Source: Sphingobacteriaceae bacterium (lineage in GTDB: Bacteria > Bacteroidota > Bacteroidia > Sphingobacteriales > Sphingobacteriaceae). Taken from it: a DNA stretch of 64,000 bases. Shown here in pieces: positions 3,251 through 63,139 of this stretch. Below the pieces are notes generated by a model, which saw only the letters and a list, made by a program, of their open reading frames with translations, was not told the DNA's origin and did no database searches. The stretch spans positions 620,001 through 684,000 of the forward strand of contig CAHJWG010000001.1 of NCBI GenBank assembly GCA_903642215.1, read 5' to 3'. A program made the position numbers and the translations under genes. Each line of letters starts with the position of its first letter. Within the stretch, counting starts at the first letter, position 1.

Positions 3251-4027
3251 TTGCAAAATAACATAATTTCCGGTGCATTTGTTGGACAAAATATTCTGAC
3301 TTTTAAGGAGATAACGTCTACAAATGACCTTACAAAAGAATTGGTGGCAAATTCCACGCCATTACCAGAAGGAACAGTCATTATGGCAGAATATCAAACT
3401 GCCGGAAAAGGGCAGCAACAAAATGGCTGGTTTAGCGAAGCCGGCAAAAATTTAACCTTCAGCATTCTTTTATTTCCGGCATTTTTATCTCCCGGTAACA
3501 CTTTCCAGCTTTTAGCAGCAATCAGTTTAGGCGTAATCAAGCCTTTACAAAAACTTTTAGGCGATAGCATCCGCATAAAATGGCCGAATGATATTTATTA
3601 CGGGCAAAAGAAGCTCGGTGGCATTTTGATAGAAAATATTCTGGCCGGCAACACGGTTAAACACGCTGTAATTGGTATCGGGATAAACGTTAACCAAGAA
3701 AATTTCCCTGCTCATTTACCAAATCCGGTTTCAATAAAGCAGATTATTCAAAAAGAAAGTAGGTTAAAAGAAGTATTATTAGAAATTTGCGCCGGGATAG
3801 AATTTTATTACCTGAAGTTAAAAAGTGCGGATTTTGCAGAAATTAAACAGGAATATCTGGATAACCTTTACGGTTTCGGGCAGGAGCTGCTTTTTAAATC
3901 CAACGAAGAAATTTTTGAAGGAGAAATTTGCATAGTAAACCATTTGGGTATGCTGGGTATCAAAAGGAAAAAGGAAATTGAATTTTTTAATCTGAAACAG
4001 ATCAAATTTATTTTTAACGAATCATGA
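3251..4027 (+). CDS. birA: Biotin--[acetyl-CoA-carboxylase] ligase, catalytic domain only
   Basis: Transfers biotin to the carrier domain of biotin-dependent carboxylases. The frame has no ATG before residue 45, so translation most likely starts at TTG 3251 (MQNNIISG), which suits the family length (258 aa). Visible motifs are STNDLTKE, TAGKGQQQNGW (the biotinyl-AMP loop, usually GRGRxGR-like) and KWPNDIYYGQKKLGGIL. The N-terminal DNA-binding domain of E. coli BirA is absent, so it is not expected to repress transcription. It carries one copy of the dispersed motif (3765-3776) and overlaps the next gene by 4 nt. Confidence 0.93.
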   Translation: MQNNIISGAFVGQNILTFKEITSTNDLTKELVANSTPLPEGTVIMAEYQTAGKGQQQNGWFSEAGKNLTFSILLFPAFLSPGNTFQLLAAISLGVIKPLQKLLGDSIRIKWPNDIYYGQKKLGGILIENILAGNTVKHAVIGIGINVNQENFPAHLPNPVSIKQIIQKESRLKEVLLEICAGIEFYYLKLKSADFAEIKQEYLDNLYGFGQELLFKSNEEIFEGEICIVNHLGMLGIKRKKEIEFFNLKQIKFIFNES

Positions 4028-4470
4028 AAAAATTAACCCTGATTATCATTACAGCTTTATTAAGCACCGGTTTATCCGCACAAATTCTGCAGCCGGTAAA
4101 ATGGTCATACGCTGCAAAAAAAACCAGTAAAACAGAAGCCGTTTTACTGCTAAAAGCAACGATAGACCAAGGCTGGCATATCTATTCTACGCAGCAAAAA
4201 GAGGGCGGCCCGATAAAAACTTCAATCACGTTTACACCTTCAAAAGATTATGCCATAAACGGAGCATTGGCAGAACCGAAACCGGTAACCAAGTTTGAGC
4301 AGGTTTTTAAAATGAATGTTAACTATTTTGAAAAGGCAGTCATCTTTCAGCAAAAAATAAAACTAAAGAAAGACCAAACCAGCATTAAAGGCCAGTTAGA
4401 ATACATGGTTTGTAATGATAAGCAATGCCTTCCGCCAGATAATGTTGATTTCGATATTCCGATTAAGTAA
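4024..4470 (+). CDS. Secreted DsbD N-terminal-domain-like protein
   Basis: A 148-residue protein with a cleavable signal peptide (MKKLTLIIITALLSTGLSAQ). The remainder resembles the N-terminal periplasmic domain of thiol:disulfide interchange protein DsbD. The paired cysteines of that domain appear in MVCNDKQCLPPDNVDF. No membrane or thioredoxin domains follow, so it is a stand-alone domain that may exchange disulfides with another periplasmic partner (inference). The start overlaps the birA stop as ATGA, which implies translational coupling. Confidence 0.8.
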   Translation: MKKLTLIIITALLSTGLSAQILQPVKWSYAAKKTSKTEAVLLLKATIDQGWHIYSTQQKEGGPIKTSITFTPSKDYAINGALAEPKPVTKFEQVFKMNVNYFEKAVIFQQKIKLKKDQTSIKGQLEYMVCNDKQCLPPDNVDFDIPIK

Positions 4471-4506
4471 CTATTAAGCAGTTATTTAAATAATATTTTT
4501 ATAAAA

Positions 4507-5490
4507 ATGAGTATTCCCATAGAAAATATAGGTGTGTTTACTTCCGGTGGTGATGCGCCGGGGATGAACGCAGCCATCCGTGCCGTTGTGCGTACGGCGT
4601 TGTATTATAACATCCAGGTTACCGGAATCCGGCGCGGTTACGAAGGCATGATCAACGGCGATATGTTTATAATGGATCGCCGCTCGGTTGCCAACATTGT
4701 GCAGCGCGGCGGCACGATATTAAAAACAGCCCGCAGCGAACTTTTTAGAACGCCTGAAGGACGGAAAATAGCTTACGGCCAATTGCAAAAATACAATGTA
4801 GATGCTTTGGTAGCTATTGGCGGCGATGGTACGTTTACCGGTGCAAAAATTTTTGGACAGGAATTTAATATGCCGATTGTTGGTTTGCCCGGGACAATCG
4901 ATAACGATTTGTTTGGTACTGATTTTACCATCGGTTACGATACTGCCATAAATACGGTGGTAAACGCAGTAGATAAAATCCGCGATACGGCCGAATCACA
5001 TGATCGTTTGTTTATTGTGGAAGTGATGGGCCGTGATTGTGGTTTGATTGCTTTACGAACCGGAATTGCAACCGGTGCGGAAGCAATTTTGATCCCGGAA
5101 ACAAAAACTACCGGCATCGACTCTGTTTTTGCCCGTTTGGAAAGAGACCGCCGGCATAAATCATCTAAAATTATTATTGTTGCCGAAGCAGAAGAAGCCG
5201 GCGGCGCATTTGAAATTGGCGATCAGATTAAAGAGAAATATCCTAATTATGATACGCGCGTTTCTATTTTGGGCCACATCCAGCGTGGTGGTATGCCAAC
5301 CTGTATGGATCGTGTTTTAGCAAGCCGTGTAGGCGTTGCAGCTGTAGAAGGTTTACTTGACGGACACCGGAACGAAATGGTTGGCTTGGTGCACAACGAT
5401 ATCAAGTTTACAGATTTTGATCATGCCGTTAAACATAATACAGAGATCAACCCTAACTTTTTAAAAATTGTAGAAATTTTATCGTTGTAA
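4507..5490 (+). CDS. pfkA: ATP-dependent 6-phosphofructokinase
   Basis: Phosphorylates fructose 6-phosphate in glycolysis. At 327 residues it has the usual bacterial PfkA length. Motifs in order: GGDAPGMN (14-21), RRGYEG, GGDGTF near 105, the catalytic loop PGTIDND (128-134), MGRDCG near 174 and HIQRGG near 257. Gly at the position following GGDG is consistent with ATP rather than PPi use. It is followed by an inverted pair of the dispersed motif acting as a likely terminator. Confidence 0.98.
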   Translation: MSIPIENIGVFTSGGDAPGMNAAIRAVVRTALYYNIQVTGIRRGYEGMINGDMFIMDRRSVANIVQRGGTILKTARSELFRTPEGRKIAYGQLQKYNVDALVAIGGDGTFTGAKIFGQEFNMPIVGLPGTIDNDLFGTDFTIGYDTAINTVVNAVDKIRDTAESHDRLFIVEVMGRDCGLIALRTGIATGAEAILIPETKTTGIDSVFARLERDRRHKSSKIIIVAEAEEAGGAFEIGDQIKEKYPNYDTRVSILGHIQRGGMPTCMDRVLASRVGVAAVEGLLDGHRNEMVGLVHNDIKFTDFDHAVKHNTEINPNFLKIVEILSL

Positions 5491-5493: not shown

Positions 5494-5564
5494 TTATGTG
5501 CTAAAAGAAGTAGTCAACTCCCTCTCCTTTAGAGTGGGCTGGGGCTACTTCTTTTAGCACATAA
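5494..5564. terminator. 20-bp inverted repeat built from two copies of the dispersed motif
   Basis: The left arm at 5494-5513 contains GCTAAAAGAAGTAG and the right arm at 5545-5564 is its exact 20-nt reverse complement. The 31-nt loop contains CCCTCTCCTTTAGAGTGGGC, itself a weak inverted repeat. It sits between the convergent pfkA and nucleotidase genes, so it probably works as a bidirectional terminator. Confidence 0.75.
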
Positions 5565-5567: not shown

Positions 5568-6095
5568 TCAAAGTAGTTTTGCAGCAACTTCTTCCCAGGT
5601 ATTTACCCGTTCAAATTCTGTTATCAGTTTGTTATGCGGAGAGGTAAAAAGCAGCGGCCGACCGTCAAACGCAGTAAAATTGCGGCTGCGGTCATCAATC
5701 ATCACATCAACATTAACTATTTTTAAGCCGCAAAAAATAGTGCGCTGCCATGGGATAAACGGAAAATGATCTGCCAGCCAATCTACTTTATCTTCCAGCG
5801 AATTGCGAAATTCCATTGCTGCAGAAACAATAAAAACATCGTATTTCTGGTCTAATTCTTTAACCACGCGCTGGCTGTCTTTAATCACTTCCAAATCGCG
5901 GAAAAACCCTTTTTCATAAATGTGTTTTCTAAAATCTCCGGCAATATGTTCTGGTAAAATATGATAAAATTCTTCCCCGTCGGCTTGTGCTCTTAATGCT
6001 ATTTCCGGATGATCGCGTTTATAAAGTGCTTCAAATTTGGCAATTACATCTGCCATCACTTCGTCCATATCTATCGCAATGCGTTGTTTTTCCAT
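5568..6095 (-). CDS. 5'(3')-deoxyribonucleotidase-like HAD phosphatase
   Basis: HAD-superfamily protein of the NT5C (deoxyribonucleotidase) type, expected to dephosphorylate deoxynucleoside monophosphates. I place the start at ATG 6095 (MEKQRIAIDMDEVMADV) because motif I, DMDEV, should lie near the N-terminus. The open frame extends 16 residues further upstream without family resemblance. Later motifs are FIVSAAMEF (motif II region) and VDVMIDDRSRNF (motif IV). It is convergent with pfkA. Confidence 0.88.
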   Translation of the reverse strand: MEKQRIAIDMDEVMADVIAKFEALYKRDHPEIALRAQADGEEFYHILPEHIAGDFRKHIYEKGFFRDLEVIKDSQRVVKELDQKYDVFIVSAAMEFRNSLEDKVDWLADHFPFIPWQRTIFCGLKIVNVDVMIDDRSRNFTAFDGRPLLFTSPHNKLITEFERVNTWEEVAAKLL

Positions 6096-6164
6096 GATTG
6101 TATTGATAACTTGTTCTGCAAATTGAAAAAAATATATCAGCATTCACACAAATCAGTTGCATTT

Positions 6165-6176
6165 ATACTGTTTTTA
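6165..6176 (-). repeat. Dispersed motif copy upstream of rpsP
   Basis: Exact copy of TAAAAACAGTAT (reverse strand) in the spacer between the nucleotidase and rpsP, about 32 nt upstream of the -7 box. Confidence 0.8.
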
Positions 6177-6207
6177 GCAATGTTTTTTTATATCCTGAAT
6201 ATTTTTA

Positions 6208-8764: not shown

Positions 8765-9112
8765 ATGGATTTAGTAAAATTTGTTGAAGAACAAAACATA
8801 GTTAAAAGCAGTTTCCCTTCCTTTAAAGCTGGTGACACCGTTAGCGTATACTACAAAATCAGAGAAGGTAATAAAGAGCGTATTCAGCTTTATCAAGGCG
8901 TTGTAATTCAGCGTAACAGCACTGGCGCACACGAAACTTTTACCGTACGTAAGGTTTCTAACGGCATTGGTGTTGAACGTATTTTCCCCGTCAATTCTCC
9001 AAATATTGATAAGGTAGAAGTTAACAGCCACGGTAAAGTACGTCGTGCTAAATTGTTCTACCTGCGCGAGTTAACCGGTAAAGCAGCTCGTATTAAATCT
9101 AAAAGAGTTTAA
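8765..9112 (+). CDS. rplS: 50S ribosomal protein L19
   Basis: The 115 residues match L19: [29 protein letters not shown] and the C-terminal [20 protein letters not shown] strong inverted-repeat terminator follows directly. Confidence 0.98.
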
Positions 9113-9132: not shown

Positions 9133-9177
9133 GATAAAAGAAGCCTTTCAGAAAGAATCTGAAAGGCTTCTTTTATG
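9133..9177 (+). terminator. rplS terminator made of an inverted pair of the dispersed motif
   Basis: ATAAAAGAAGCCTTTCAGA and its reverse complement flank a short loop, giving a stem of about 19 bp followed by a T-rich tract. Both arms contain TAAAAGAAGCCT, two mismatches from the dispersed motif. Confidence 0.88.
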
Positions 9178-9224: not shown

Positions 9225-9306
9225 TGTCATCCTGAACTTGTTTCAGGATCTCTCGTGAAAAGTAGTAACCATGTTTTGTGAGATGCCGAAACAAGTTCTG
9301 CATGAC
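9225..9306. repeat. REP-like intergenic palindromic repeat
   Basis: The unit runs from TGTCATCCTGAACTTG to a mirror-image end in ATGCCGAAACAAGTTC. The arms GAACTTGTTTC and GAAACAAGTTC are perfect inverted repeats. Two closely related copies lie at 10835-10914 and 10960-11039, so this is a dispersed intergenic element. Confidence 0.75.
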
Positions 9307-9316
9307 AAAACTGATA

Positions 9317-9982
9317 TTAATCCGTTACCAATTCAGCTAAAAGCGTTCTTCCGCCTTTTACGGTTTCACCTAAATTTACGTTGATTTTGGTCCCGATCGG
9401 TAAAAAAACATCAACCCGAGATCCAAATTTAATAAAGCCAAACTGCGCGCTTTGCTCTACTTCATCGCCTTCATTGATATACCAAACGATACGGCGGGCC
9501 AAAGCACCTGCAATCTGCCTGAACAAAACCGGAATGCCCTGAGGCGTTTCTACCACAACCGTTGTGCGCTCGTTATCTGTGGATGATTTTGGATGCCAGG
9601 CAACCAGATATTTCCCCGGATGATATTTGAAGTATTTAACCACGCCGGTAATCGGGTTTCGGTTTACGTGTACGTTGATCGGCGACATAAAAATAGAAAC
9701 CTGGATCCGTTTATCTTTTAAATATTCCGGTTCCTGTACTTCTTCAATTACAACTACTTTTCCATCAGCGGGGCAAATTACCATTTTTTCGTCCGTCGTA
9801 ACTGCGATTTTCGGATGCCGGAAAAACTGCAGGACGATTAAAAATAATATTGCCGATAAAATATAAATCACCCAACGAAAAAGTACCGTATCCGGGAAGT
9901 AAAACTGGACGATTGCGTTAAGCACAAAAATAAATAATATGGTTAGAGCGATAGAGGAATAGCCTTCTTTATGAATAGTCAT
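9317..9982 (-). CDS. psd: Phosphatidylserine decarboxylase proenzyme
   Basis: Converts phosphatidylserine to phosphatidylethanolamine using a pyruvoyl group formed by self-cleavage. The 221-residue short-form protein has two N-terminal membrane segments and ends with FGFIKFGSRVDVFLPIG, where the GS of FGSR is the cleavage and pyruvoyl site. cdsA is 20 nt upstream on the same strand, so the two phospholipid genes form an operon. Confidence 0.95.
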   Translation of the reverse strand: MTIHKEGYSSIALTILFIFVLNAIVQFYFPDTVLFRWVIYILSAILFLIVLQFFRHPKIAVTTDEKMVICPADGKVVVIEEVQEPEYLKDKRIQVSIFMSPINVHVNRNPITGVVKYFKYHPGKYLVAWHPKSSTDNERTTVVVETPQGIPVLFRQIAGALARRIVWYINEGDEVEQSAQFGFIKFGSRVDVFLPIGTKINVNLGETVKGGRTLLAELVTD

Positions 9983-10002: not shown

Positions 10003-10812
10003 TTACAAAGGTGAAAATAAGTACAGATAAATAAAAACGAGCGGCGCGGCCAGTAAAAGTCCGTCGAAACGATCCAGCAAGCCACCATGTCCGGGTAAAA
10101 TATTGCCGGAATCTTTTACGTTGATGCTTCTTTTAAGCATAGATTCTACGAGATCGCTCATGGTGCCGAAAATGGAAATGATGAGCGAAACGATGATCCA
10201 GTGGAAGATTGAAATCTGTAAAAAATATTGACTGATAATGAACGCAATAATAACAGCTACGATAATTCCGCCGATAAATCCTTCCCATGTTTTTTTGGGT
10301 GAATGCTGTTCAAAAAGCTTATTTCTGCCAAATTGCCGGCCTGACAAGTAAGCGAAAGTATCATTCGTCCAAAGCAATAAAATGAATCCGAGCGGCAGAT
10401 GGAAATTAAAATCATGATGCAAAAATCCTATCGCCATAAAAAAAACGAAAGGTATTAACGTGTAAATCAATCCTAAAAAAGTATAAGCGATTTGGTGGAA
10501 CGGTTTTTCTGATTTTTGATAGAGTTCCGCAAAAAAAATTAAAACGCAGAATAAAACAATCAATCCTGAAAAATACCTGGTAAAAGAAGCATTGAGCCAA
10601 AAGGAAGTTGCGGTGATACAAATAAGTAAACCTAAAACTAATCCTAAAATTTGCTGCGGATAAACGCCGGTAGTTTTGATCAAACCATAAAATTCAAACA
10701 GGCAAAGTAAACTCAGTAATGAAAAAAAGCTGAGAAAAACATATGGCCCGAAAAAAAAGGCGGCCAGCATCACCAAAACAAAAAAGAAACCGGTTATCGC
10801 TCTGGTTTTCAT
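10003..10812 (-). CDS. cdsA: Phosphatidate cytidylyltransferase
   Basis: Makes CDP-diacylglycerol from phosphatidic acid and CTP. The 269-residue polytopic membrane protein carries the CdsA signature near 224-248 (SMLKR, KDSG, LPGHGGLLDRFD). It is coupled with psd downstream. Its first codons lie inside the first copy of a tandemly duplicated 110-bp segment (10805-10915). It carries one dispersed-motif copy at 10581-10592. Confidence 0.96.
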   Translation of the reverse strand: MKTRAITGFFFVLVMLAAFFFGPYVFLSFFSLLSLLCLFEFYGLIKTTGVYPQQILGLVLGLLICITATSFWLNASFTRYFSGLIVLFCVLIFFAELYQKSEKPFHQIAYTFLGLIYTLIPFVFFMAIGFLHHDFNFHLPLGFILLLWTNDTFAYLSGRQFGRNKLFEQHSPKKTWEGFIGGIIVAVIIAFIISQYFLQISIFHWIIVSLIISIFGTMSDLVESMLKRSINVKDSGNILPGHGGLLDRFDGLLLAAPLVFIYLYLFSPL

Positions 10813-11040
10813 GGCCGGATAGGTTGATTGTTTTCATGCAGAACTTGTTTCGGCATCTCATTACAAAAGTAAAAACCTGGCAAGAGGGATCCTGAAACAA
10901 GTTCAGGATGACAAAGCGGAAACAAGCGAGTTTTCATGGCCGGATAGGTTGATTGTTTTCATGCAGAACTTGTTTCGGCATCTCATCATAAAAGTAAAAA
11001 CCTGGCAAGAGGGATCCTGGAACAAGTTCAGGATGACAAA
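10805..11040. repeat. Tandem duplication (period 125 bp) containing two REP-like units
   Basis: The sequence starting GTTTTCATGGCCGGATAGG at 10805 recurs at 10930 and stays nearly identical for about 110 bp, with a few substitutions. Each unit includes an inverted-repeat element with GAACTTGTTTC and GAAACAAGTTC-like arms. The first unit includes the cdsA start codon, so the duplication copied the cdsA 5' end and its upstream repeat. Confidence 0.85.
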
Positions 11041-11061: not shown

Positions 11062-11274
11062 TCATGGTTTAATATCGTTTAAAACCAGGATTTCGATAGC
11101 ACGGCTGAACTCAGATTTATGGATGTAAACTTCTACCTGCCCGAAAGTATTGTGTGCAGAATCGCGCTTATTCATTAAAACAGCTTCAATTTCGTGTTGT
11201 ACAAGCACTTGTTTTACCAATTCCGATTGAAAGAAATTAGCGGAAGTATAAATTTTAACCCAATCTGATTCCAT
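11062..11274 (-). CDS. DUF2007 putative signal-transducing protein
   Basis: A 70-residue protein (MESDWVKIYTSANFFQSELV) of the DUF2007 family. I take ATG 11274 as the start because it overlaps the upstream CPBP stop as TAATG. The longer open frame merely reads into that gene. The family is related to signal-transducing PII-like small domains by annotation only, and no function is proven. Confidence 0.8.
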   Translation of the reverse strand: MESDWVKIYTSANFFQSELVKQVLVQHEIEAVLMNKRDSAHNTFGQVEVYIHKSEFSRAIEILVLNDIKP

Positions 11275-12197
11275 TAAACAGTTTGTAAACGTTGCTTGTA
11301 AGTTTCCGACACTTTTTTGTAGCATAAAAACAGTATCAGCGTAAGTAAAATACTAAAGGCGTAGCTTTTCCAATCAAACGAAGGCTGTTCGGTTTTAATC
11401 ATTTTAAGCTGATACAAATAACTGGCCACCAAAGCGGCACCATTATTTAAAAAATGGCCAAATACGCCCGGCCAGATACTGCCGCTCCAGGCGGCGAAAT
11501 AACCGAAAAATACGCCTAAAGCCATGCGCGGTAAAAAGCCGAAAAACTGAAAATGTATGGCACTGAACAAGGCTGCGGAAAGCCAAATCCCCCAATGGAT
11601 GTTGTTTGTCCAGCCGGTAAAAATTTGCTGGAAGCAACCGCGAAAAATAAATTCTTCGGAAACGGCCGGTAAAATGGCGATCATCAGCAGGTTAATTAGA
11701 AAACTGAGCGGCGATTTCATTTGTAATAAAATCTCGGTTTGCTCGCCGGCTGTATCTTCCATACTGCGCATCCACCGTTCCACACCTTTTAAAAAGTGCG
11801 GTAAAACCATTTTCTGATTGAAATTGATCAGCATGTCCATCAGTGGCGAAGAGATCAGCATAACTAAAAACACCAGTAAAAGAAGTATCAGCGGAAACTT
11901 CCAATTTGCTTTGAGATAAGTTTGCGGCTGCCGAACCAAAACTTTTGCAAAAAAAATAGCCGGAATCAAAAAGCCAAAAACAGAAGAACCCATCTGCATA
12001 AACTTTAAACTATTTAGCGTGCTGGCCGGCATATTGGCACTCATCTGCATCATATCGCTAAAGCCGGAAGTACCGTAAATAATTACGATAATAACGCCAC
12101 AAATCAAACCGCCGATAAATAAGCCGCCGATGGCAAGCAGCACCATCAGCAAAAATTGCAACGGGTATGACATTTGGTAGTATGGCTTTTCAATCAT
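11274..12197 (-). CDS. CPBP-family intramembrane metalloprotease
   Basis: A 307-residue polytopic membrane protein of the CPBP/Abi (type II CAAX prenyl endopeptidase-like) family. The catalytic signature is clear: EEFIFRG (Glu 181-182, Arg 186), FSAIHFQFFGFLPRMALG (His 215) and FGHFLNN (His 248). Two dispersed-motif copies occur at 11325-11336 and 11877-11888, in frames that code for LILFL and LILLL in membrane segments. The substrate is unknown. Start could also be MSYPLQF at 12173. Confidence 0.9.
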   Translation of the reverse strand: MIEKPYYQMSYPLQFLLMVLLAIGGLFIGGLICGVIIVIIYGTSGFSDMMQMSANMPASTLNSLKFMQMGSSVFGFLIPAIFFAKVLVRQPQTYLKANWKFPLILLLLVFLVMLISSPLMDMLINFNQKMVLPHFLKGVERWMRSMEDTAGEQTEILLQMKSPLSFLINLLMIAILPAVSEEFIFRGCFQQIFTGWTNNIHWGIWLSAALFSAIHFQFFGFLPRMALGVFFGYFAAWSGSIWPGVFGHFLNNGAALVASYLYQLKMIKTEQPSFDWKSYAFSILLTLILFLCYKKVSETYKQRLQTV

Positions 12198-13671: not shown

Positions 13672-13731
13672 ATACTTCTTTTATACCAATAAAAACAGCA
13701 AAGCCGCAATCAAAAAAATTGCGGCTTTGCT
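13672..13731. terminator. Bidirectional terminator preceded by dispersed-motif dyad
   Basis: ATACTTCTTTTA at 13672-13683 and TAAAAACAGCAA at 13690-13701 form a loose dyad directly after the apaG stop. This is followed by a 14-bp perfect stem, AGCAAAGCCGCAAT with ATTGCGGCTTTGCT (13697-13710 and 13718-13731), with T-runs on both strands. It serves the convergent apaG and zinc-peptidase genes. Confidence 0.85.
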
Positions 13732-14450: not shown

Positions 14451-14518
14451 CTTATTTATTTTTTTACTATTGATGATCGTATTTCAAAAAGTATTCCGAT
14501 TCTTAATTTTTATATCGA

Positions 14519-14531
14519 TAAAAGAAGCATC
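14519..14531 (+). repeat. Dispersed motif in murF/zinc-peptidase spacer
   Basis: TAAAAGAAGCATC preceded by TTTTTATATCGA, so it shows the TTTTA-n-TAAAA arrangement seen at many copies. Confidence 0.85.
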
Positions 14532-46855: not shown

Positions 46856-46867
46856 TAAAAACAGTAT
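46856..46867 (+). repeat. Dispersed motif between rbfA and hflX
   Basis: TAAAAACAGTAT, 5 nt before the hflX stop codon in the spacer. Confidence 0.85.
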
Positions 46868-48655: not shown

Positions 48656-49456
48656 TTAGAAAGTTAATTTTTTTATTTCAGCAACAAATTCCTGCATTGC
48701 CTGCCCCGGATCGGTTTCTTTCATAAAATTCTCACCGATTAAAAATCCGTTAAAACCGGCTTCTTTTAAGCGTAAAATAGTTTCGGGATTAGAAATCGCA
48801 CTTTCAGAAATCTTTAAAAATTCCTTCGGTATAGATTTTATCAGGTTAAAAGAAGTATCAACGGAAACAGTAAAATCCGCCAGGTTTCGGTTATTTACAC
48901 CGATAACATCAAGCTGCGGGTTTAAACTGCGTTCCAGTTCTTCCAAATTATGTACTTCCAGTAAAACATTTAACCCCAAACTTTTTGCAAGCGAAGCCAT
49001 TGTTTTAATTTCCTGCGGAGATAAAATTGCTGCAATCAGTAAAATGATATCTGCACCCAAAGCTTTTGCTTCGATGATCTGGTATTCATCAATCATGAAA
49101 TCCTTACGCAAAACCGGAACCTGATTTGCTTTTCTCGCCTGGATCAAATCACTTTTTTTACCCATAAAAAAAGTAGAATCAGTTAAAACGGACAATGCCG
49201 AAGCACCGGCCGCAGCATAAGCCTGCGTTACGTTTTTAACTTTTACCTGATCGTTAATAATTCCTTTGGAAGGCGATTTTCGCTTAAACTCTGCAATAAT
49301 TCCGCTTCGCAACGGATCAAGCAAAAACTCGCGGAAAGAATAAGTTGGCCGGCCAAAATAGTCTGATTCTTCCAGTTTGGTGTAAGAATTTTTGTTTTTT
49401 GCAGCCTGAACTTCTACTTTTTTCCGGGCAACAATCCGATCTAAAATATTTGCCAT
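48656..49456 (-). CDS. trpC: Indole-3-glycerol-phosphate synthase
   Basis: Fourth enzyme step of Trp synthesis. The 266-residue TIM barrel has IIAEFKRKSPSKG (active-site Lys/Glu), VLRKDFMIDEYQI, LEVHNLEELE and GVNNRNLADF. It directly follows trpG (26-nt gap); trpD, usually between them in this phylum, is not here. It contains motif copy 48847-48858. Confidence 0.97.
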   Translation of the reverse strand: MANILDRIVARKKVEVQAAKNKNSYTKLEESDYFGRPTYSFREFLLDPLRSGIIAEFKRKSPSKGIINDQVKVKNVTQAYAAAGASALSVLTDSTFFMGKKSDLIQARKANQVPVLRKDFMIDEYQIIEAKALGADIILLIAAILSPQEIKTMASLAKSLGLNVLLEVHNLEELERSLNPQLDVIGVNNRNLADFTVSVDTSFNLIKSIPKEFLKISESAISNPETILRLKEAGFNGFLIGENFMKETDPGQAMQEFVAEIKKLTF

Positions 49457-50112: not shown

Positions 50113-50129
50113 GATGCTTCTTTTATCGG
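50113..50129 (-). repeat. Dispersed motif fills the trpE-trpG spacer
   Basis: GATGCTTCTTTTATCGG; on the coding strand CCGATAAAAGAAGCATC directly precedes the trpG ATG, so it may also serve as its A-rich translation initiation region. Confidence 0.85.
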
Positions 50130-51747: not shown

Positions 51748-52179
51748 TCACAAAACGCCGCGATGACTTAGAATAAGTGTTACGATTACAATTATTATTG
51801 CTGAAAGATAAAAAATGAAGATGTTAAAATGCTTCTTTTCCGGTAATAAAATCTTCTTGGAACGAGAATAGCCGATCGTAATTAAAACAACGGCAATGAT
51901 CATCATGGTGATATGTTCTACAGTCCAGTAACGTGTTGTTGCATTTTTCATGGCTGCACCGGAAAACTGTACCAGCGGACTCAAAAAGAAGTATAGTATC
52001 AAGCCGATGAGTAATTGTGTATGTGCCGAAATAAGTGCAAATAAATTTAATTTCCGGTTGGTTTCGGTATAAGGTTTTTTACCTATCCAGCTTAAAAGTG
52101 CTTGTATTGTTGCAAAAACAACTAAAATAAGCACTACATAGCGCAAACCCGAGTGTAGATATTTAAAAAAAGTGTACAT
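51748..52179 (-). CDS. Cytochrome-b-like four-helix membrane protein
   Basis: A 143-residue protein with four TMs; His9, His53, His89 (FKYLHSGLRY, ALISAHTQL, TVEHITM) could bind heme, as in the cytochrome-b/CopD-like small proteins common in Bacteroidota. Function unknown. The start codon overlaps a dispersed-motif copy. Confidence 0.75.
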   Translation of the reverse strand: MYTFFKYLHSGLRYVVLILVVFATIQALLSWIGKKPYTETNRKLNLFALISAHTQLLIGLILYFFLSPLVQFSGAAMKNATTRYWTVEHITMMIIAVVLITIGYSRSKKILLPEKKHFNIFIFYLSAIIIVIVTLILSHRGVL

Positions 52180-52190
52180 AAAAGAAGTAT
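52165..52190 (+). repeat. Extended two-part motif overlapping a start codon
   Basis: AAAAAAAGTGTACA then TAAAAGAAGTAT. The gene on the minus strand starts with the CAT formed at the junction, giving ATACTTCTTTTATG, as at the tricorn-like gene (59793). Confidence 0.85.
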
Positions 52191-52556
52191 TGAGTTTTCT
52201 GCAAATATACAGGTTATTTAATGTTGCTTACGTTTTGAGGGAAGCCGATGTGTACCTGCCATAAAGTTGCCAAAAACTTTTTAGGATGTAGGAGTTTTGT
52301 ACGGCTTAACCGGAACCGATTTCTGGCGTCAGTGTGATTTACCTTTTTGAAGCCGGCGAACCGGTTGTTTTAGCTTATATTAAAAACTGCTTTTTAACAG
52401 CAAAGAGCTTTTTATGCGGTAAAAGAAGCATCGGTAAAACCGGTTACGGGTAAGATACGTAAAACAATTTTTGGTTAAAAGGAGTAAGATTGATAATGAT
52501 TGCTGCGGAATGTGAAGCGGCACTTTTTTTAAAAACCTTGATAATTTATCTTGTTT
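52180..52556. other. 377-nt spacer without a gene
   Basis: No supported CDS. It holds a second motif copy at 52420-52431, followed by CGGTAAAACCGG, and preceded by TTTTTATGCGG. Confidence 0.6.
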
Positions 52557-54650: not shown

Positions 54651-57600
54651 TTATTTGCGGTTAATTTCGTTAAAGTAAGTCTTTATTTTTGATTTATAAA
54701 ACAGATTCACATTCGGCGGTATGGTTATAAGCTGTTCTGTTTGCTTATTTTTTATCTGCTGATAGCTTTGTAATGCCTTCTGGTAACCCGGAGCGGTGGT
54801 TTTGCCGGCCTGGCTTTCCCGCTTTTGGTCTTGTTCTCTTTCCTGTTCTGCTTTTTCAGCTTCCAACAACCTAGTTTGTATTTTCTGTTGCCTGATTAAC
54901 GTTTCAGTTTGTATTTTCTTATTTACGAGATCGCTCTCAGTTTGTTCCATTTGTTTCGCAATCTCGCCGAGATTACCTAACCCGCTTTTACCGTCTTTGT
55001 TTTCTTGCTGGTTAATATTTTGTAACGCCCGGCGGATCATTTCCTGCTGTCTGGCCATTTTTGCCATCTGCTCGCTCATGCCTTCACCTCTTTGCTGGCC
55101 AGGCTGATTTTGCGGCTGGCCCTGATTGCCCTGCTGCTGCATTTGCTGCCTTGCTTTTTGCATGTTTTTGTTGAGTTCCTGCTGCATCTGGCTTAACTGC
55201 TGCATGGAAGGCTGCTTCTTTTTGCCGCTGCCGGGTTTGGCATTTTTCATCATATTCTGTAGCTGATCCAGTACCTCATTCAGCATTAAAGCCAGATTAT
55301 TCATCGAAGTCATGGCAAATTGTTGCGCGCTGTTAGCTTCATTCGTTCGCCTTTCGCCCAGGTTAGCAATTGCCTGATCGATGTTATTGTTGATCGTTGT
55401 GATTTCTTTATTCACCGTAGATTCTATTTGCGGCACGCGTTTACTCAACGCAAACAAACTGTCTTCTACTGTTTTTAGGTTATCTTTTATGTTTTGCTGC
55501 TGCTGTGTTTGATTAACGTAATCGGGATCATTAGCATTAAGCTGCTTAAACGTTTGCATCACTTTTTCCTGGTTGAAAGAACTTGTAACCAAGCTTTTTA
55601 AAATCGCCCGAAGCTGCTGTGCATTCAGTTCCGTTTCTTTTTCTTCGCCTTGCTGCTGCGATTGCTTCATTTTACTGCTCATTTTTTGCATGGCAGCAGC
55701 AGCATTTTGTTGAGATTGTGATGCTTTTGGCCGATTATTTTTTTCTAAGTTTTCCGAGCTCTTGTCCATTTCCTGCTCGGCATCTTTTTGTTCTTCTTTC
55801 GGCGTTTCAAAATCATTCTTTTTTTCCAGCTGTTCGTTTTTCTGTTCCAGTTCTTTTAAAGATTTTTCCAATTCTTTAAAGTCTTTTTTGATAGATTCCT
55901 GTTCCTGTTTCAGCTGGTTGTTTTCCTGCTTCGTTTGCTTACTTTTTTCTGCTAAAGCCTGTTGCTTTTCGGTCAGTTTATCCAACTGATTAATGTTCTG
56001 GTTCAGCTTCTGGTCAAACTCCAGTTGCTTATATAATTCCAGCATCCGGTCAAGTTCTTTTTGCAGCGATTTATTGTCCATCTGCATTTTAGAAACATCT
56101 TCCCGCGCTTCATCTTTCTGATTTTGCTGCAGCATCTGCTCCAGATTTTTCAGCAGTTCCTTCGTTTTTTCGTCCAAAACATTCTTAAACAAATCATTAA
56201 TCTGCTTCTGTTTTTCTAAAACTTCTTGGTTTTGCTGCTTCGTTTCCTGGCGGTTATACAGGTTTTTTTCATTTTCCTGCTGCATATCTTTCACCAAATC
56301 TTCCAGTTCGCGGCGTTTTTGCAGCAAATCTTCCACTTGCTTTTTCTCGTCAAAAGAAAGCGTTTTTTTATCCAGCAAAAGGCGGTTCAGTTTCTGTGCA
56401 TCGCGTTCTACCTGAGCCGAAAGTTTAATGGCCGATTGCATTTTGTTTTTAACCGATTGCGTGCCGGCGTCCAGTTGCTTATTTTGTTCGATTTCTGTTG
56501 GGATGCGCAAAGTTTGCTCCGGCGTACGGCTGTGTTTTGCGCCGTTTACGCCATCATTGTCAGCTACATCAAAATAATAACTCAACTCATCGCCCGGATT
56601 TAGCGATGCTTCTTTTATCGACCAAAAGTAGAAGAACGTAGACGAGTTTTGCTTCAAATCAGCTTTAACAGGCAAACTATAAGTTTTATTTTTCTGCGGA
56701 GAAGCGTTATTCCGAACAGAATAATGAAAAGTTAAAGACGAAAACCCATAATCATCCTGGATTTTCCCGTTAAAATAAAATGCTTTAGAACTGATGGAAT
56801 CTGCTTTTTGCTCCGCAGAAATTACCGGCGGTAAATCCGGGATTATAGAAATTCGATAAGCGGCAGAATCCGTAGAAGTAACAAAATTATTGATCGGTTT
56901 TACCGCATAAGAACCAGATTTCAATAGTTTTTCCTGATGTTTAAAAACCTCATTATCAGCAGAAATCAATGTTTTTTTCTGATTCATCGAAAATAAAACC
57001 TGGCTGGTATTTTCGGTATGCAATTCCCATTGCGCCAGCGTTCCTTCGGGCAAAGTCAGATCGCCGGCGTTATTTACACTTTCTGCGGATTTATGCAGAT
57101 ACACCGGATAAATCAGCTTTACATCCAAATGCAGCAACGAAGGTTTCGGGTTGACTTTGATCTCAAATTCCTCCGAAGAAAAATCATTTCCAACCAAATG
57201 AAAACGGATATTTTGCTGAATGTTAGAAAAAGTATGGTAAAAAGAGCTCAGGTTTTCTTTGTCTAATTTAAAGCTGTTTTTGCCGGATTCGAGGTAAATA
57301 CTTTCCGGAAATTCATTGCCGCTCAGCTTTAAATTCAGCTTAAAATCTTCGCCCTGAACAACTGAAAGCGATTTATTTAAAATATGCCAGTTAAAAGGAG
57401 CTTTGGGCGCAAAATACTGGTTGTGTTTGATGATGCGCTCCGTGCCATCGTGGATGATGGAAGGTGCCACAAACGCCACCGTGATAATTAAAACCAGCGG
57501 AATCAAAATCCATTTCAAGAACTTTTTATTTTCGTTAATTTTTACCGCTGCCGAAAAAGTAACCGGTTTTAACTCAGCAATTTTTTGGTTGATGCTGGCT

Positions 57601-58007
57601 TCGATCAAAATTTTATGATCCGGATTTTGATCAGCAATTTTCTTCAACTGCAAAGTATTCAGCAGTTTATCCTGCACATTTTGAAAATATTTACCGATGA
57701 TTTCTGCTGCCTGATCGTGCGAAATCAACTTTCCTAATCGAAAATAAGCCAGCAAAGACGGCGCAACGAGCCAGGCAAAAAGCGACAAATTCAACAGGAT
57801 AAATCCATAGAAAATAAAGGAACGGAAAAACGTATTGAAATGGCCGTAATACTCGGAAAAAGTGATAACAAGATAGCTGAAAAACAGCGCTGCGCCCAAA
57901 AAAATGAACCCGCGAAGTAACTTGTTTAAGTAATACTTCCGGATAAATTCATCCATTTTGGCAAGCAGTAAATCATAATTGCTTGTGGGCTGCATCATAC
58001 AAATCAA
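54651..58007 (-). CDS. DUF4175 family membrane protein with long Gln/Glu/Lys coiled coil
   Basis: A 1118-residue protein with three TMs (near 33-52, 58-80 and 163-182), a beta-rich extracytoplasmic region, then a low-complexity coiled coil from about 500 onward (runs of Q, E, K and N) and Gln-rich QMQQQGNQGQPQNQPGQQRG. DUF4175 proteins are conserved in Bacteroidota and of unknown role. The start is ambiguous (58007, 57998 or 57995). The dispersed motif is at 56606-56617. Confidence 0.88.
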   Translation of the reverse strand: MICMMQPTSNYDLLLAKMDEFIRKYYLNKLLRGFIFLGAALFFSYLVITFSEYYGHFNTFFRSFIFYGFILLNLSLFAWLVAPSLLAYFRLGKLISHDQAAEIIGKYFQNVQDKLLNTLQLKKIADQNPDHKILIEASINQKIAELKPVTFSAAVKINENKKFLKWILIPLVLIITVAFVAPSIIHDGTERIIKHNQYFAPKAPFNWHILNKSLSVVQGEDFKLNLKLSGNEFPESIYLESGKNSFKLDKENLSSFYHTFSNIQQNIRFHLVGNDFSSEEFEIKVNPKPSLLHLDVKLIYPVYLHKSAESVNNAGDLTLPEGTLAQWELHTENTSQVLFSMNQKKTLISADNEVFKHQEKLLKSGSYAVKPINNFVTSTDSAAYRISIIPDLPPVISAEQKADSISSKAFYFNGKIQDDYGFSSLTFHYSVRNNASPQKNKTYSLPVKADLKQNSSTFFYFWSIKEASLNPGDELSYYFDVADNDGVNGAKHSRTPEQTLRIPTEIEQNKQLDAGTQSVKNKMQSAIKLSAQVERDAQKLNRLLLDKKTLSFDEKKQVEDLLQKRRELEDLVKDMQQENEKNLYNRQETKQQNQEVLEKQKQINDLFKNVLDEKTKELLKNLEQMLQQNQKDEAREDVSKMQMDNKSLQKELDRMLELYKQLEFDQKLNQNINQLDKLTEKQQALAEKSKQTKQENNQLKQEQESIKKDFKELEKSLKELEQKNEQLEKKNDFETPKEEQKDAEQEMDKSSENLEKNNRPKASQSQQNAAAAMQKMSSKMKQSQQQGEEKETELNAQQLRAILKSLVTSSFNQEKVMQTFKQLNANDPDYVNQTQQQQNIKDNLKTVEDSLFALSKRVPQIESTVNKEITTINNNIDQAIANLGERRTNEANSAQQFAMTSMNNLALMLNEVLDQLQNMMKNAKPGSGKKKQPSMQQLSQMQQELNKNMQKARQQMQQQGNQGQPQNQPGQQRGEGMSEQMAKMARQQEMIRRALQNINQQENKDGKSGLGNLGEIAKQMEQTESDLVNKKIQTETLIRQQKIQTRLLEAEKAEQEREQDQKRESQAGKTTAPGYQKALQSYQQIKNKQTEQLITIPPNVNLFYKSKIKTYFNEINRK

Positions 58008-59586: not shown

Positions 59587-59792
59587 GATATGGTTGGTTG
59601 TTACAGTACCTATAAACTGTAAAATTGGTGTAAGGTTTAATACGTAATAGCGGGTTCTTTTTTTGTTAAACGATGCTAATTCCAAAGAAAAATAAAGCAA
59701 CAGCAATCTTTTTTATCTATTCGCAAAATTTTTACAAAAAGTAATCGGGTAAAAACTTATCTTGAAAACTTTTTAAATTGTGGTTAATTTCA

Positions 59793-59804
59793 ATACTTCT
59801 TTTA
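59793..59804 (-). repeat. Dispersed motif overlapping the tricorn-like start codon
   Basis: ATACTTCTTTTA followed by TG forms the start codon ATG at 59804. Confidence 0.85.
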
Positions 59805-62800
59805 TGCACAAAAAATTACAAACAGCTTGTTTATTTTTTTTGCTGGCAGCTGCTCCAACTGCTTTTTCGCAGTCTTTTGCAGGTAAAACCGTTGCCGGCA
59901 TCCCTTATTATTCTGATCCGGCAATTTCGCCGGACGGTACTGAAATTGCTTTTACTTCCGGCGGAGATATCTGGACGGTTCCTGCTGCCGGCGGCGAAGC
60001 GCATTTGCTAATTTCTGACCCGGCTTATGATTCGCGGCCGGTTTATTCGCCCGATGGAAAATATCTCGCCTTCAACTCAACCCGAACCGGCAATGGTGAT
60101 ATTTATATTTTCAACCTTAAAACAAATGAATTAAAACGCCTGACTTTTGATGACGGCAATGAAAGTTTAAGTGCCTGGTCGCCGGATGGTAAATACGTTT
60201 ATTACGCTTCCACCAGTCATGAAATTTCCGGGATGAACGATGTTTTCCGGATCAAAGCGGGAGGCGGCACGCCGATGCCGGTAAGCGAAAACCGTTATAT
60301 GAACGAGTTTTTTGCGATGCCTTCTCCCGATGGAAAAACCCTTGCTTTAACCGCTCGCGGCGTAGCTGCGCAACAATGGTGGCGCAACGGCAGCAGCCAT
60401 TTAGACCAATCAGAAATTTGGTTGATGAAAGAAGGAAAACCATCGCCTTATGAAAAATTTACGGCCGGCGGTGCCAAAGAATTATGGCCGATGTGGAGCA
60501 AAGACGGACAATCAATCTATTATATTTCTGATCGCAGCGGCACACAAAATTTATGGGTAAAAACAGTATCCGGCACACCAAAACAACTTACTAAATTTAG
60601 TAGTGGGCGCGTGCTTTGGCCAACTATGGCTTTCAACGGAAAAACAATTGTTTTTGAGCGCGATTTTAAAATCTGGAAGTACGATTTAGCTTCCGGCAAA
60701 GCTTCTGCCATGGATATTGTTCGCCGCGGCGCACCCGCCGGCCCCGGTACAGAACATCAGCGGTTAACCAATCAGTTCAGAAGTTTAGCTTTATCCCCGG
60801 ATGGTAAAAAAGTTGCTTTTGTAGCACATGGCGATGTTTTTGTTTCCGCTGCGCGGGATGGCGGGGATGCTTTTAGGGTAACCAATACCGGTGCAAACGA
60901 ATCGCAGCCGCAATGGGCACCAAACAGCAATACGCTGGTTTACATTTCCGATCGCGGAGATGCCGCACATTTATATCAGTATAATTTTATCACGGCAAAA
61001 GAAGTATGCCTTACAGATGGTAACCTGGATGATGGCGCACCGTTATTTTCACCAACCGGAAAATCAGTTGCCTTTATCCGTAACGGGAAAGAATTGCGGG
61101 TTTTAAACCTGGAAACCAAGCAGGAAAAACTTTTGGCAAAAGGATTTATGGGCCGGCCGCCTTTTACCGCTGCCGGCGGTGTTAGTTGGTCGCCGGATGG
61201 CAGCTGGCTGGCTTACGGTGCTTACGGCAACAAAACCTTTTACAATGTTTACGTGGTTCCTGCTGCCGGCGGCGAACCGAAAGCGATTAGTTTTTTAGCG
61301 AATACTTTTGGCGGAGATGTTAACTGGAGTGCCGATGGAAAATATATCTTGTTCAACACTAATCAGCGGACAGAAGACGCCAGTATAGCCCGGATTGACC
61401 TGGTGCCGCAGCGGCCGCGTTTCCGCGAAGATCAGTTCCAGCAGATGTTTATCGAACAAAATACTTCGCCTGCAAGCCCGGTAAACACGGTAACATCCAA
61501 ACCATCGGCAGAGAAAAAACCGGATGCTTTGGATTCACTCAAAAAAGCATCGGTAAAAACAGTACGGCCAAAACCGGAAGAAATAAAAATTGTGACGGAA
61601 GGCATCCGCCAGCGTTTAAATTTACTGCCGCTCGGCGTAGATGTTAACGATTTTAAGTTGAGTAAAGATGGCAACACGTTGTTAATAACAGCATCTGCCG
61701 CCGGGCAATCCAACCTGTACACTTATTCTTTAAACGAACTGGCTACAGAACCGGCTGCCTTAAAACAGCTTACTTCTACACATGCGCCTAAAATTGATGC
61801 GCAGTTTTCTGCCGATGGTCGCGAAGTTTTTTATATGGAGCAGGGCCGCATACAATCCATCGCTTTGGATAGCAAAACAGTAAAACCTTTGGCAGTTACC
61901 GCCGAAATGGATATTGACTTTAACAAAGAAAAAATAGAGGTTTTTGAACAGGCCTGGGAAGCGCAAAGCAAAGGTTTTTATGATGAAAACTTCCACGGAA
62001 CCAACTGGAATACGGTTAGGCGGGAGTATGAGCCGATGGCTGCCGGAGCCAGCACGCCGGAAGAATTGCGGCGGATTTTAAGTTTGATGGTGGGCGAATT
62101 AAACGCTTCACATTCCGGCATTTCCGGTTCTTCTCCTTTGCAGATTGTTACCGGCCGTTTAGGTTTGCATTTTGATCGCGCAGCTTATGAAAACGGCGGC
62201 AAGTTTAAAATTACCGAAATTATCCCTTTAAGTGCTGCTGACCTCGCCGAAAATATCCATATCGGAGATTATTTAACCGCAATTGATGATCAGCCGTTAA
62301 ATGCAAATATTAATCTGGATCAGTTACTGGAAAATAAAATTAACCGCCGGGTTGCTTTAACTATTGGTTCGGCTTCGGGTGCAAATTCGCATAAAGTAAC
62401 CGTTCGGCCAAGCAATCAGGCAACAGAAAAAGGCTTGCTTTATAAATACTGGGTACAGCAGCAACGGGATTATATCAATAAAATCAGTAACGGCCGGCTG
62501 GGTTATGTACATTTATTTGATATGTCAGAACAATCTCTTAATCAGTTATATCTGGATTTGGATGCAGAAAATCAATCCAAAGAAGGTGTCGTGATTGATG
62601 TACGCAATAACAACGGCGGTTTTGTAAATGCTTATGCGCTGGATGTATTCAGTAGAAAACCGTATTTAACCATGACCGGCCGCGGGATGCCTTCCGGCCC
62701 GGCGCGTACACAGTTGGGACAAAGAACGCTTGAACTGCCAACAATTTTGGTTACCAACCAGCATTCACTTTCTGATGCGGAAGATTTTACAGAAGGTTAC

Positions 62801-63067
62801 CGCGCCATGAAATTGGGAAAAGTGGTGGGCGAGCCAACCGGCGGCTGGATTATTTTTACCGGAGCTACAACTTTAATCGATGGTTCTACCCTGCGGATGC
62901 CTTTTAGCCGGATTACCGATCATGATGGTAAAGATATGGAATTGCATCCGCGCCCGGTTGATGTACCTGTTTCCAGAGCTTTAGGTGAAGGAAATACGAA
63001 AGATTCTCAATTAGATGCGGCGGCGAAGGAGTTGCTACAGGAAGTTGGCGGGAACAAATCGAGGTAG
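59804..63067 (+). CDS. Secreted tricorn-like S41 protease with beta-propeller domains
   Basis: A 1087-residue exported protein (signal MHKKLQTACLFFLLAAAPTAFS). Residues about 25-600 hold repeated PD40/WD-like units (SPDGTEIAFTS, SPDGKYLAFNS, SPDGKYVYYAS, SPDGSWLAYGA). A PDZ region near 780-850 (ENIHIGDYLTAIDDQPL) and S41 core follow: GRLGYVHLFDMS, VIDVRNNNGG and NQHSLSDAEDF with the nucleophile Ser near 990. Expected to degrade peptides in the periplasm. ATG 59804 preferred over ATG-less upstream frame. Confidence 0.93.
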   Translation: MHKKLQTACLFFLLAAAPTAFSQSFAGKTVAGIPYYSDPAISPDGTEIAFTSGGDIWTVPAAGGEAHLLISDPAYDSRPVYSPDGKYLAFNSTRTGNGDIYIFNLKTNELKRLTFDDGNESLSAWSPDGKYVYYASTSHEISGMNDVFRIKAGGGTPMPVSENRYMNEFFAMPSPDGKTLALTARGVAAQQWWRNGSSHLDQSEIWLMKEGKPSPYEKFTAGGAKELWPMWSKDGQSIYYISDRSGTQNLWVKTVSGTPKQLTKFSSGRVLWPTMAFNGKTIVFERDFKIWKYDLASGKASAMDIVRRGAPAGPGTEHQRLTNQFRSLALSPDGKKVAFVAHGDVFVSAARDGGDAFRVTNTGANESQPQWAPNSNTLVYISDRGDAAHLYQYNFITAKEVCLTDGNLDDGAPLFSPTGKSVAFIRNGKELRVLNLETKQEKLLAKGFMGRPPFTAAGGVSWSPDGSWLAYGAYGNKTFYNVYVVPAAGGEPKAISFLANTFGGDVNWSADGKYILFNTNQRTEDASIARIDLVPQRPRFREDQFQQMFIEQNTSPASPVNTVTSKPSAEKKPDALDSLKKASVKTVRPKPEEIKIVTEGIRQRLNLLPLGVDVNDFKLSKDGNTLLITASAAGQSNLYTYSLNELATEPAALKQLTSTHAPKIDAQFSADGREVFYMEQGRIQSIALDSKTVKPLAVTAEMDIDFNKEKIEVFEQAWEAQSKGFYDENFHGTNWNTVRREYEPMAAGASTPEELRRILSLMVGELNASHSGISGSSPLQIVTGRLGLHFDRAAYENGGKFKITEIIPLSAADLAENIHIGDYLTAIDDQPLNANINLDQLLENKINRRVALTIGSASGANSHKVTVRPSNQATEKGLLYKYWVQQQRDYINKISNGRLGYVHLFDMSEQSLNQLYLDLDAENQSKEGVVIDVRNNNGGFVNAYALDVFSRKPYLTMTGRGMPSGPARTQLGQRTLELPTILVTNQHSLSDAEDFTEGYRAMKLGKVVGEPTGGWIIFTGATTLIDGSTLRMPFSRITDHDGKDMELHPRPVDVPVSRALGEGNTKDSQLDAAAKELLQEVGGNKSR
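61540..61565 (+). repeat. Extended two-part motif in the tricorn-like gene
   Basis: CAAAAAAGCATCGG then TAAAAACAGTAC. Confidence 0.75.
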
Positions 63068-63092
63068 GATTTATTAAGATTGTAAATTTTGG

Positions 63093-63139
63093 AATGCTTC
63101 TTTTATCGGCTTAAAATTTAGGTTGATAAAAGAAGTATT
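63093..63139. terminator. Inverted motif pair between convergent genes
   Basis: ATGCTTCTTTTA (63094-63105) and TAAAAGAAGTAT (63127-63138) are exact motif copies facing each other, with TCGG and TTGA-type linkers. The location between convergent tricorn-like and YihY genes fits a terminator. Confidence 0.8.

Follow-up and report, generated by a model that had tools for sequence, protein, structure and literature searches.

A clade-limited, dispersed DNA motif around Mucilaginibacter arboris resembles an uptake sequence by nearly all genomic tests

The dispersed motif in the window

The 64-kb stretch of DNA analysed here, referred to as the window, spans positions 620001-684000 of contig C1 in the genome of a Sphingobacteriaceae bacterium (3,839,488 bases, 68 contigs) and carries, in genes and spacers alike, a dispersed motif in the form of two 12-nt words, TAAAAGAAGYAT and TAAAAACAGYAT. 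This motif is real and more abundant than first counted. The original prediction had reported 35 exact copies on both strands (23 plus, 12 minus) and some 20 one-mismatch copies; the presence of the motif is confirmed, while recounting yields 37 exact copies (22 of the first word and 15 of the second; 24 plus, 13 minus) and 41 distinct one-mismatch sites, about twice the earlier figure, three of which are common to both word searches. Searches of the window that allow one mismatch return 49 and 32 matches for the two words, compared to means of 2.0 and 2.3 in dinucleotide shuffles, and none of 100 shuffles reaches either number. In line with this abundance, the motif words and pieces of them top the ranking of window k-mers for k = 9 to 12 against an order-3 Markov background. 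Using a crude caller of open reading frames (ORFs), 13 exact copies are intergenic, 2 lie at ORF edges and 22 within ORFs, which matches the roughly 15 spacer copies predicted. The four words originally put forward are, however, not the entire site, which also includes an A/T tract one turn of the helix further upstream: WWWW placed seven bases ahead of TAAAARMAGYAT has 34 matches in the window where 0.09 are expected, and 32 of these are exact copies of the predicted words.

The copies in the window are listed below, named GA or AC after the core dinucleotide. Types were taken from the exact and one-mismatch searches and ORFs from the crude caller; the relatives are M. arboris and a further genome, G027.

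3753-3776, plus: GA copy with AAGAAA in the A/T tract slot; ORF 3251-4027 (+); exact in both relatives
5502-5556, plus and minus: inverted one-mismatch pair TAAAAGAAGTAG; hairpin, RNA fold z -10.8; between convergent ORFs 4507-5490 (+) and 5568-6143 (-)
6165-6188, minus: AC copy; intergenic; not retained in M. arboris
9135-9175, plus and minus: inverted one-mismatch pair TAAAAGAAGCCT; hairpin, RNA fold z -7.4; between convergent ORFs 8765-9112 (+) and 9317-9982 (-)
10124-10147, minus: GA copy; ORF 10003-10812 (-); retained in both relatives
10569-10592, plus: GA copy; ORF 10003-10812 (-); retained in both relatives
11313-11336, plus: AC copy; ORF 11274-12197 (-); retained in M. arboris, one mismatch in G027
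11865-11888, plus: GA copy; ORF 11274-12197 (-); retained in both relatives
13672-13701: GA copy 13672-13683 (-) with one-mismatch AC copy 13690-13701 (+), at the preferred 18-bp inverted spacing; intergenic; no hairpin on the folded strand (RNA fold z +0.2)
14507-14530, plus: GA copy; intergenic; retained in both relatives
14680-14703, plus: AC copy, GA type in both relatives; ORF 14564-15883 (-)
16131-16154, minus: AC copy; start of ORF 16119-18629 (+); retained in G027, lost in M. arboris
17291-17314, plus: AC copy; ORF 16119-18629 (+)
17530-17553, plus: GA copy; ORF 16119-18629 (+)
18607-18630, minus: AC copy; 3' end of ORF 16119-18629 (+)
19395-19418, minus: AC copy; ORF 18626-21070 (-); lost in both relatives
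21023-21046, plus: GA copy; ORF 18626-21070 (-)
22740-22763, plus: GA copy; ORF 21409-23040 (-); lost in both relatives
23466-23489, plus: GA copy; intergenic
28310-28333, plus: AC copy; end of ORF 28333-29535 (-)
28719-28742, minus: AC copy; ORF 28333-29535 (-)
31780-31803, plus: AC copy, GA type in both relatives; ORF 30825-33017 (+)
37017-37040, plus: GA copy; intergenic
37887-37910, plus: AC copy; ORF 37733-38722 (+)
40307-40330, minus: GA copy; ORF 38741-40873 (+)
40539-40562, plus: AC copy; ORF 38741-40873 (+)
40881-40904, minus: GA copy; intergenic, directly past ORF 38741-40873 (+)
43939-43962, plus: GA copy; intergenic
44813-44836, plus: AC copy; intergenic
46844-46867, plus: AC copy; intergenic
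48835-48858, plus: GA copy; ORF 48656-49456 (-)
50114-50137, minus: GA copy; intergenic
52167-52190, plus: GA copy; start edge of ORF 51748-52179 (-)
52408-52431, plus: GA copy; intergenic
56606-56629, minus: GA copy; ORF 54651-58007 (-)
59793-59816, minus: GA copy; start of ORF 59780-63067 (+)
60546-60569, plus: AC copy; ORF 59780-63067 (+)
63094-63138: inverted exact GA pair, 63094-63105 (-) and 63127-63138 (+), with one common A/T tract; between convergent ORFs 59780-63067 (+) and 63141-63992 (-); hairpin, RNA fold z -10.2 and -7.1 (two strands)

Site structure, distribution and constraint

A profile built from 324 copies in 464 kb of the window's genome reveals a full site of about 24 bp, composed of an A/T tract (-12 to -7), a YGR step and TAAAA(GA|AC)AGYAT; outside about -18 and +16 the flanks have no common sequence. 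Within the tract A comes first, A or T next and mostly T last, C and G being nearly absent at -11 to -8. These four positions are all A/T in 86-96% of the copies, depending on class, against a background of 17% in coding and 26% in spacer DNA, and changes between species that hit the tract stay A/T in 32 of 43 cases, compared to 27-34% in the flanks. The centre of the tract lies 12 bp from the centre of the AAAA run, a weak C/T-G-A/G preference is seen at -3 to -1, and C/T is preferred after the core. The core dinucleotide is essentially two-state, with 213 GA and 111 AC copies beside 15 AA and 9 GC. Between the members of inverted pairs, spacings of 18 and 32 bp are favoured. At 32 bp one A/T tract is common to both sites, and in all six exact 18-bp pairs on C1 of the window's genome the left copy is of the AC type, the five-T run of which fills the partner's tract slot; in our reading of this geometry, the T-run of one core falls into the A/T-tract slot of the other.

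The window's genome contains 1644 copies of TAAAAGAAGYAT (776 plus, 868 minus) and 786 of TAAAAACAGYAT (353 plus, 433 minus), whereas the reversed words occur only 3 (0 plus, 3 minus) and 1 (0 plus, 1 minus) times. The total of 2430 agrees with the thousands per genome that had been predicted; counts near background, named beforehand as refuting, were not seen, the genome counts being hundreds of times the reversed-word control. Two further genomes carry the motif at similar density, namely M. arboris (G002, in which 22,421 bases are identical to the locus of strain HMF7410) and G027; together with the window's genome they form the clade considered here. The three hold 2430, 3035 and 3480 copies, corresponding to one per 1580, 1384 and 1149 bp, with 4, 3 and 5 reversed words. 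Among 201 genomes of the family (25 genera), the first word occurs 1644, 2321 and 2624 times in the three clade genomes and at most 17 times, near the reversed counts, in the remaining 198; the second word occurs 786, 714 and 856 times in the clade. Across a class-wide sample of 395 genomes, TAAAARMAGYAT is found 2655 times in the window's genome and 104 times (68 reversed) in the runner-up, the other 394 genomes being near background. Similarly, among 78 loci around an outer-membrane protein gene, that of M. arboris HMF7410 has 16 copies in 22 kb and the other 77, of which 40 are labelled Mucilaginibacter, have 0 or 1 each. As only the three clade genomes and the HMF7410 locus carry it, the motif belongs to the M. 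arboris clade and is confined to this small, genus-level group of the Sphingobacteriaceae.

The layout was measured on contig C1 (1.104 Mb, 673 copies). Orientation is balanced both there (334 plus, 339 minus) and on C1 of M. arboris (130 and 144), and the motif strand on the former shows no significant association with GC skew (p 0.07), which was used in place of a mapped replication origin and terminus; the strand bias for which a test had been suggested is thus not found. Density is 3.0 per kb in spacers versus 0.32 per kb in genes, and among spacer types it falls from 4.4 per kb in convergent to 3.0 in co-directional and 1.5 in divergent ones. Inside ORFs lie 295 of the 673 copies, 156 in sense and 139 in antisense orientation. 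Close pairs (<80 bp) are mostly inverted (58 of 63 on C1 of the window's genome, 20 of 25 on that of M. arboris), and once pairs are merged the gaps are more regular than exponential (Kolmogorov-Smirnov p 9e-5 and 0.002), with a deficit below 500 bp and an excess at 0.9-2 kb. Exact copies outnumber one-mismatch copies for the GA type (440 vs 326 on C1 without the motif-free island described below; 202 vs 115 on C1 of M. arboris) and do not for the AC type (232 vs 264; 72 vs 87), the one-mismatch class consisting largely of changes at position 12 and GA/AC intermediates.

One stretch of 74,347 bp on C1, between copies at 47,930 and 122,277, is free of the motif. Its genes include those for a TrwC relaxase, two tyrosine recombinases, a serine recombinase (resolvase) and a type I methylase, which identify it as an acquired mobile island; a peptidase/ABC exporter is also encoded there (47,930-122,276). 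A second motif-free gap of 16.7 kb spans 1,034,425-1,051,116.

To compare the copies between species, 362,608 bases were aligned with M. arboris at 80.5% identity, and the 204 of 673 copies with 52 aligned bases were evaluated, using ORFs from a crude longest-ORF caller. In M. arboris, 161 of the 204 are still the motif, whereas identity is found for 10.7% of random 12-mers in coding DNA, 13.2% in spacers and 17.4% at edges. The codon-position comparison covers 113 of the 118 coding sites, the five with >4 mismatches being excluded: core differences affect 6.4, 7.3 and 6.2% of first, second and third codon positions, compared to 16.7, 11.0 and 38.8% in flanks within the same ORFs; third positions changed in 28 of 452 cases in the core vs 951 of 2452 in the flanks. 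Moreover, 19 retained copies have switched between GA and AC, and all 12 of these that lie in genes alter an amino acid yet keep the motif, as in VKTVF to VKEAF; the window copies at 14692 and 31792 are switched in both relatives. Losses amount to 4 of 22 aligned window copies in M. arboris and 3 of 17 in G027. Constraint at coding copies thus acts on the DNA. The motif is neither a protein motif nor a repeat element. Peptide conservation as the cause, the other outcome that had been named as refuting, is ruled out by the low third-position change together with the peptide-altering switches. Simple A-rich codon bias is ruled out by the reversed-word controls and the spread over frames and both gene strands, so that the original exclusion of a single protein motif or codon bias is borne out by the codon-position data and these controls.

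Competence genes and other dispersed words

Of the competence genes that the original prediction had proposed to look for, ComEC and DprA are present in all three clade genomes, the prepilin family PF07963 is not found, and a ComEA-like match is weak. ComEC also occurs in 25 of 27 relatives. A type IV pilus was dropped as candidate for the outer uptake step: PF00437 (PilB/GspE-type ATPase) gives nothing over cut-off and PF07963 no match in the three clade genomes (completeness 92% for the window's genome, 99-100% for the other two), these being the two pilus families searched; two partial PF00437 matches below cut-off (E 3.4e-4 and 4.4e-5) lie in the window's genome and M. arboris. A Riemerella-type receptor was dropped as well, DUF5689, the family of a protein essential for Riemerella transformation, having no match in the same three genomes. 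Directly upstream of comEC and on the same strand lies another gene:

L165:12384-14429, minus: 681-residue protein with a signal-peptide-like start
L165:10276-12381, minus: comEC

Neither Pfam nor NCBIfam has a family for the 681-residue protein. Between residues 60 and 122 it weakly resembles ComEA structures (E 0.08 and 0.33, neither significant alone), and an AlphaFold2 model from five sequences is of low confidence (mean predicted local distance difference test, pLDDT, 49.8; predicted template modelling score, pTM, 0.28), showing a helical N-terminal part and a strand-rich remainder that is probably barrel-forming. The gene adjoins comEC in 14 of 15 comEC-bearing genomes of the family (G010 has a weak partial match, G014 none), while in all 10 genomes examined from other families (G201-G210) the two are on separate contigs; matches occur in 55 of 60 relatives, some over a short stretch only. 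The protein thus accompanies comEC in this family. We regard it as a fair candidate for the DNA channel of the outer membrane, as opposed to a demonstrated receptor.

A scan for dispersed words covered 112 loci of at least 14 kb outside the clade (71 from the 78-locus set and 41 from other genomes; 6 loci of the set and one stretch fell below this length). The sequence context was inspected for L264, L080, L239, L251, L026, L031, L033, L052 and L089, and the rest were judged by score, about 50 of the 112 being listed. One word survived among the inspected loci, GGTCAGAGCC in G204 (L251, G204:C5:50001-70000; examples at 5376, 7661, 11609, 12566, 14543 and 18668). It occurs 481 times in G204, 153 and 83 times in two genomes of the same genus and 0-8 times in the other 32 of 35 genomes of that Bacteroidota family, with reversed counts of 0-1, and one-mismatch forms such as GGTCAGATCC recur. 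This word is unrelated to the clade motif and limited to one genus of another Bacteroidota family; in contrast to the clade, a PF00437 ATPase is over cut-off in G204. Dispersed words limited to a clade may therefore be commoner among Bacteroidota than known. The remaining inspected words were rejected, the context being a tandem protein repeat in L264, longer repeats in L080 and L239, and clustered spacer repeats in L026, L031, L033, L052 and L089. Clustered spacer repeats based on GATGTGCAGAT are found in other Mucilaginibacter (L031, L033 and L089; by count also L028, L032, L034, L040 and L043).

Within the window, a different dispersed repeat of about 85 bp lies at about 9225-9310 and about 10830-11040, with dozens of partial copies in the same genome and some in both relatives; k-mers such as GTTCAGGATGAC, which head part of the window's k-mer list, probably belong to it. 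At 33206-35830 the window encodes a large protein matching an N6-methylase and an Eco57I-type methylase.

A probable uptake sequence and rival explanations

Nearly all the genomic tests run give the picture expected of an uptake sequence, and we consider it probable that the motif serves natural transformation as an uptake (self-recognition) sequence specific to the clade. An outer-surface DNA receptor would bind the bipartite site, that is the A/T tract and, about 12 bp away, the AAAA core with GA or AC and AGYAT, and would preferentially import DNA that carries it. Recombination of imported DNA into the chromosome would enrich the motif over time (molecular drive), mostly where it is least harmful, in spacers and at gene ends. 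ComEC and DprA would serve the inner steps. The outer step would have to rely on another, probably Bacteroidota-type, receptor or channel, because the pilus families searched were not found.

Uptake signal sequences (USS) and DNA uptake sequences (DUS) are described as occurring about once per kb without orientation bias, somewhat regularly spaced, in inverted close pairs, with many copies in genes and a strong consensus (PMC1626085). All these traits recur here except consensus strength, which is clear for the GA type and not for the AC type. The USS of Haemophilus and other Pasteurellaceae, AAGTGCGGT, shares with the motif a density of about one per kb, neutral orientation, slight regularity, oppositely oriented pairs and a placement in genes and spacers. 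It also has A/T segments that begin with As and end with Ts and follow each other at a distance of about one helical turn, or 12 positions (PMC1626085), comparable to the phasing of about 12 bp seen here with the tract at -12 to -7 (strongest at -11 to -8). The motif differs from USS in that its core is unrelated to AAGTGCGGT or ACAAGCGGT and has two interchangeable states, GA and AC, in that it has one flanking A/T tract located 5' of the core as written, where USS tracts are 3', and in belonging to a different phylum. The likeness to USS and DUS originally proposed holds for the distribution and, with no match over cut-off for the two pilus families searched, stops short of the known machinery. 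We infer DNA uptake by the cells, a preference for the motif in uptake and the identity of the receptor; as uptake is an inference and the pilus families are missing, the motif is not filed as USS or DUS.

In Neisseria, DUS is read by the pilin ComP, and the clade differs in having no match to the prepilin family. DUS, GCCGTCTGAA and its dialects, resembles the motif as a clade-limited word with inverted pairs tied to terminators (PMC3630211), whereas DUS is described as having no flanking motif (PMC1626085). Uptake sequences in the literature found are those of Pasteurellaceae and Neisseriaceae (PMC1626085, PMC1939737, PMC7811141), and for Bacteroidota none was found in the open-licence literature of PubMed Central (PMC) beyond a k-mer table (PMC7965970). 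That table (Table 3) lists A-rich k-mers as Riemerella candidate words, which are unlike the motif. Riemerella (Flavobacteriaceae) is a Bacteroidota genus that has ComEC and DprA in common with the clade and differs from it by DUF5689. Competence by machinery outside the known systems is documented for Bacteroidota. R. anatipestifer depends for transformation on ComEC, DprA, ComF and RecA and, in addition, on four proteins with no place in the known systems, of which one is an HHH protein and another is predicted to lie in the outer membrane (PMC8459023); a defect is also described for mutants of tonBA and tonBB (PMC8383284). R. columbina is described as preferring DNA of its own species to R. 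anatipestifer or E. coli DNA (PMC7965970).

Several observations weigh against an uptake sequence. Known USS and DUS species are described as using type IV pili (PMC7965970), so that the absence of PF00437 over cut-off and of any PF07963 match in the three clade genomes counts here, as does the missing DUF5689. ComEC is too widespread to prove competence, and the candidate channel, being widespread too, cannot alone confer clade specificity, for which a surface partner or diverged loops would be needed. Exact copies of the AC type are not above one-mismatch copies, gene spacing could partly explain the regular gaps, and no uptake data for the M. arboris clade were found in the open-licence PMC literature.

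Of the alternatives in the original prediction, a nucleoid-protein site is retained as a rival, whereas a Chi-like or segregation motif is disfavoured. A nucleoid or chromosome-organising protein specific to the clade, bending DNA at the two A/T tracts, would suit the long bipartite site with its phased tracts, the preferred inverted spacings of 18 and 32 bp, the fairly even spacing and the genome-wide presence; we nevertheless regard it as unlikely, since 74 kb without a copy are tolerated, enrichment is highest at convergent gene ends, and we know of no nucleoid protein with such dense, near-perfect sites in a single genus. Chi and KOPS (FtsK-orienting polar sequences) are strand-biased along the replichore. 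The balanced orientation and the lack of a significant GC-skew association therefore make a recombination hotspot or segregation motif of this kind very improbable, even though an over-represented short word and a link to recombination would fit; about tenfold spacer enrichment, inverted pairing and a site of about 24 bp with an A/T tract argue in the same direction.

A motif-free acquired island in an otherwise densely marked genome is what a self-versus-foreign marker for intracellular defence (restriction, Argonaute or similar) would produce, but slow accumulation accounts equally well for the empty island, known exclusion motifs are shorter, and no defence system linked to the motif was noticed, no search aimed at one having been made, which leaves this reading a slim chance. 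Enrichment at gene ends and the strong hairpins that three of four folded inverted pairs form between convergent ORFs might suggest transcription terminators or RNA-level elements. Most copies are single, however, 63 close pairs being counted for 673 copies; no fold is seen for the 18-bp pair at 13672, and the many copies inside ORFs, split between sense and antisense, are unexpected for a function at the transcript level, so that we give terminators very little credence; by analogy with DUS, hairpin use looks secondary. Thousands of copies and inverted pairs are likewise seen with mobile repeats of the repetitive extragenic palindrome (REP) or miniature inverted-repeat transposable element (MITE) type, an origin that is next to negligible here given the lack of common flanking sequence, the copies inside conserved genes that orthologues retain, and the different look of a real repeat family in the same genome.

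More broadly, and only tentatively, Bacteroidota may possess a sequence-specific uptake of their own that does without pili: an outer-membrane machine with a surface receptor would read a bipartite self-motif, different lineages having unrelated motifs such as the present one and GGTCAGAGCC; the ComEA-like plus barrel-like protein beside comEC would be a candidate for this machine. If the motif is indeed an uptake sequence, it would represent an independent case in another phylum and without pilus machinery, and hence sequence-specific uptake independent of type IV pilins. It would further open a way to the missing outer-membrane DNA receptor of Bacteroidota and supply a new natural setting in which to ask why bacteria favour the DNA of their kin. 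With the restriction to one clade and a core that has two states (GA or AC, rarely between), co-evolution of receptor and DNA can be tested directly.

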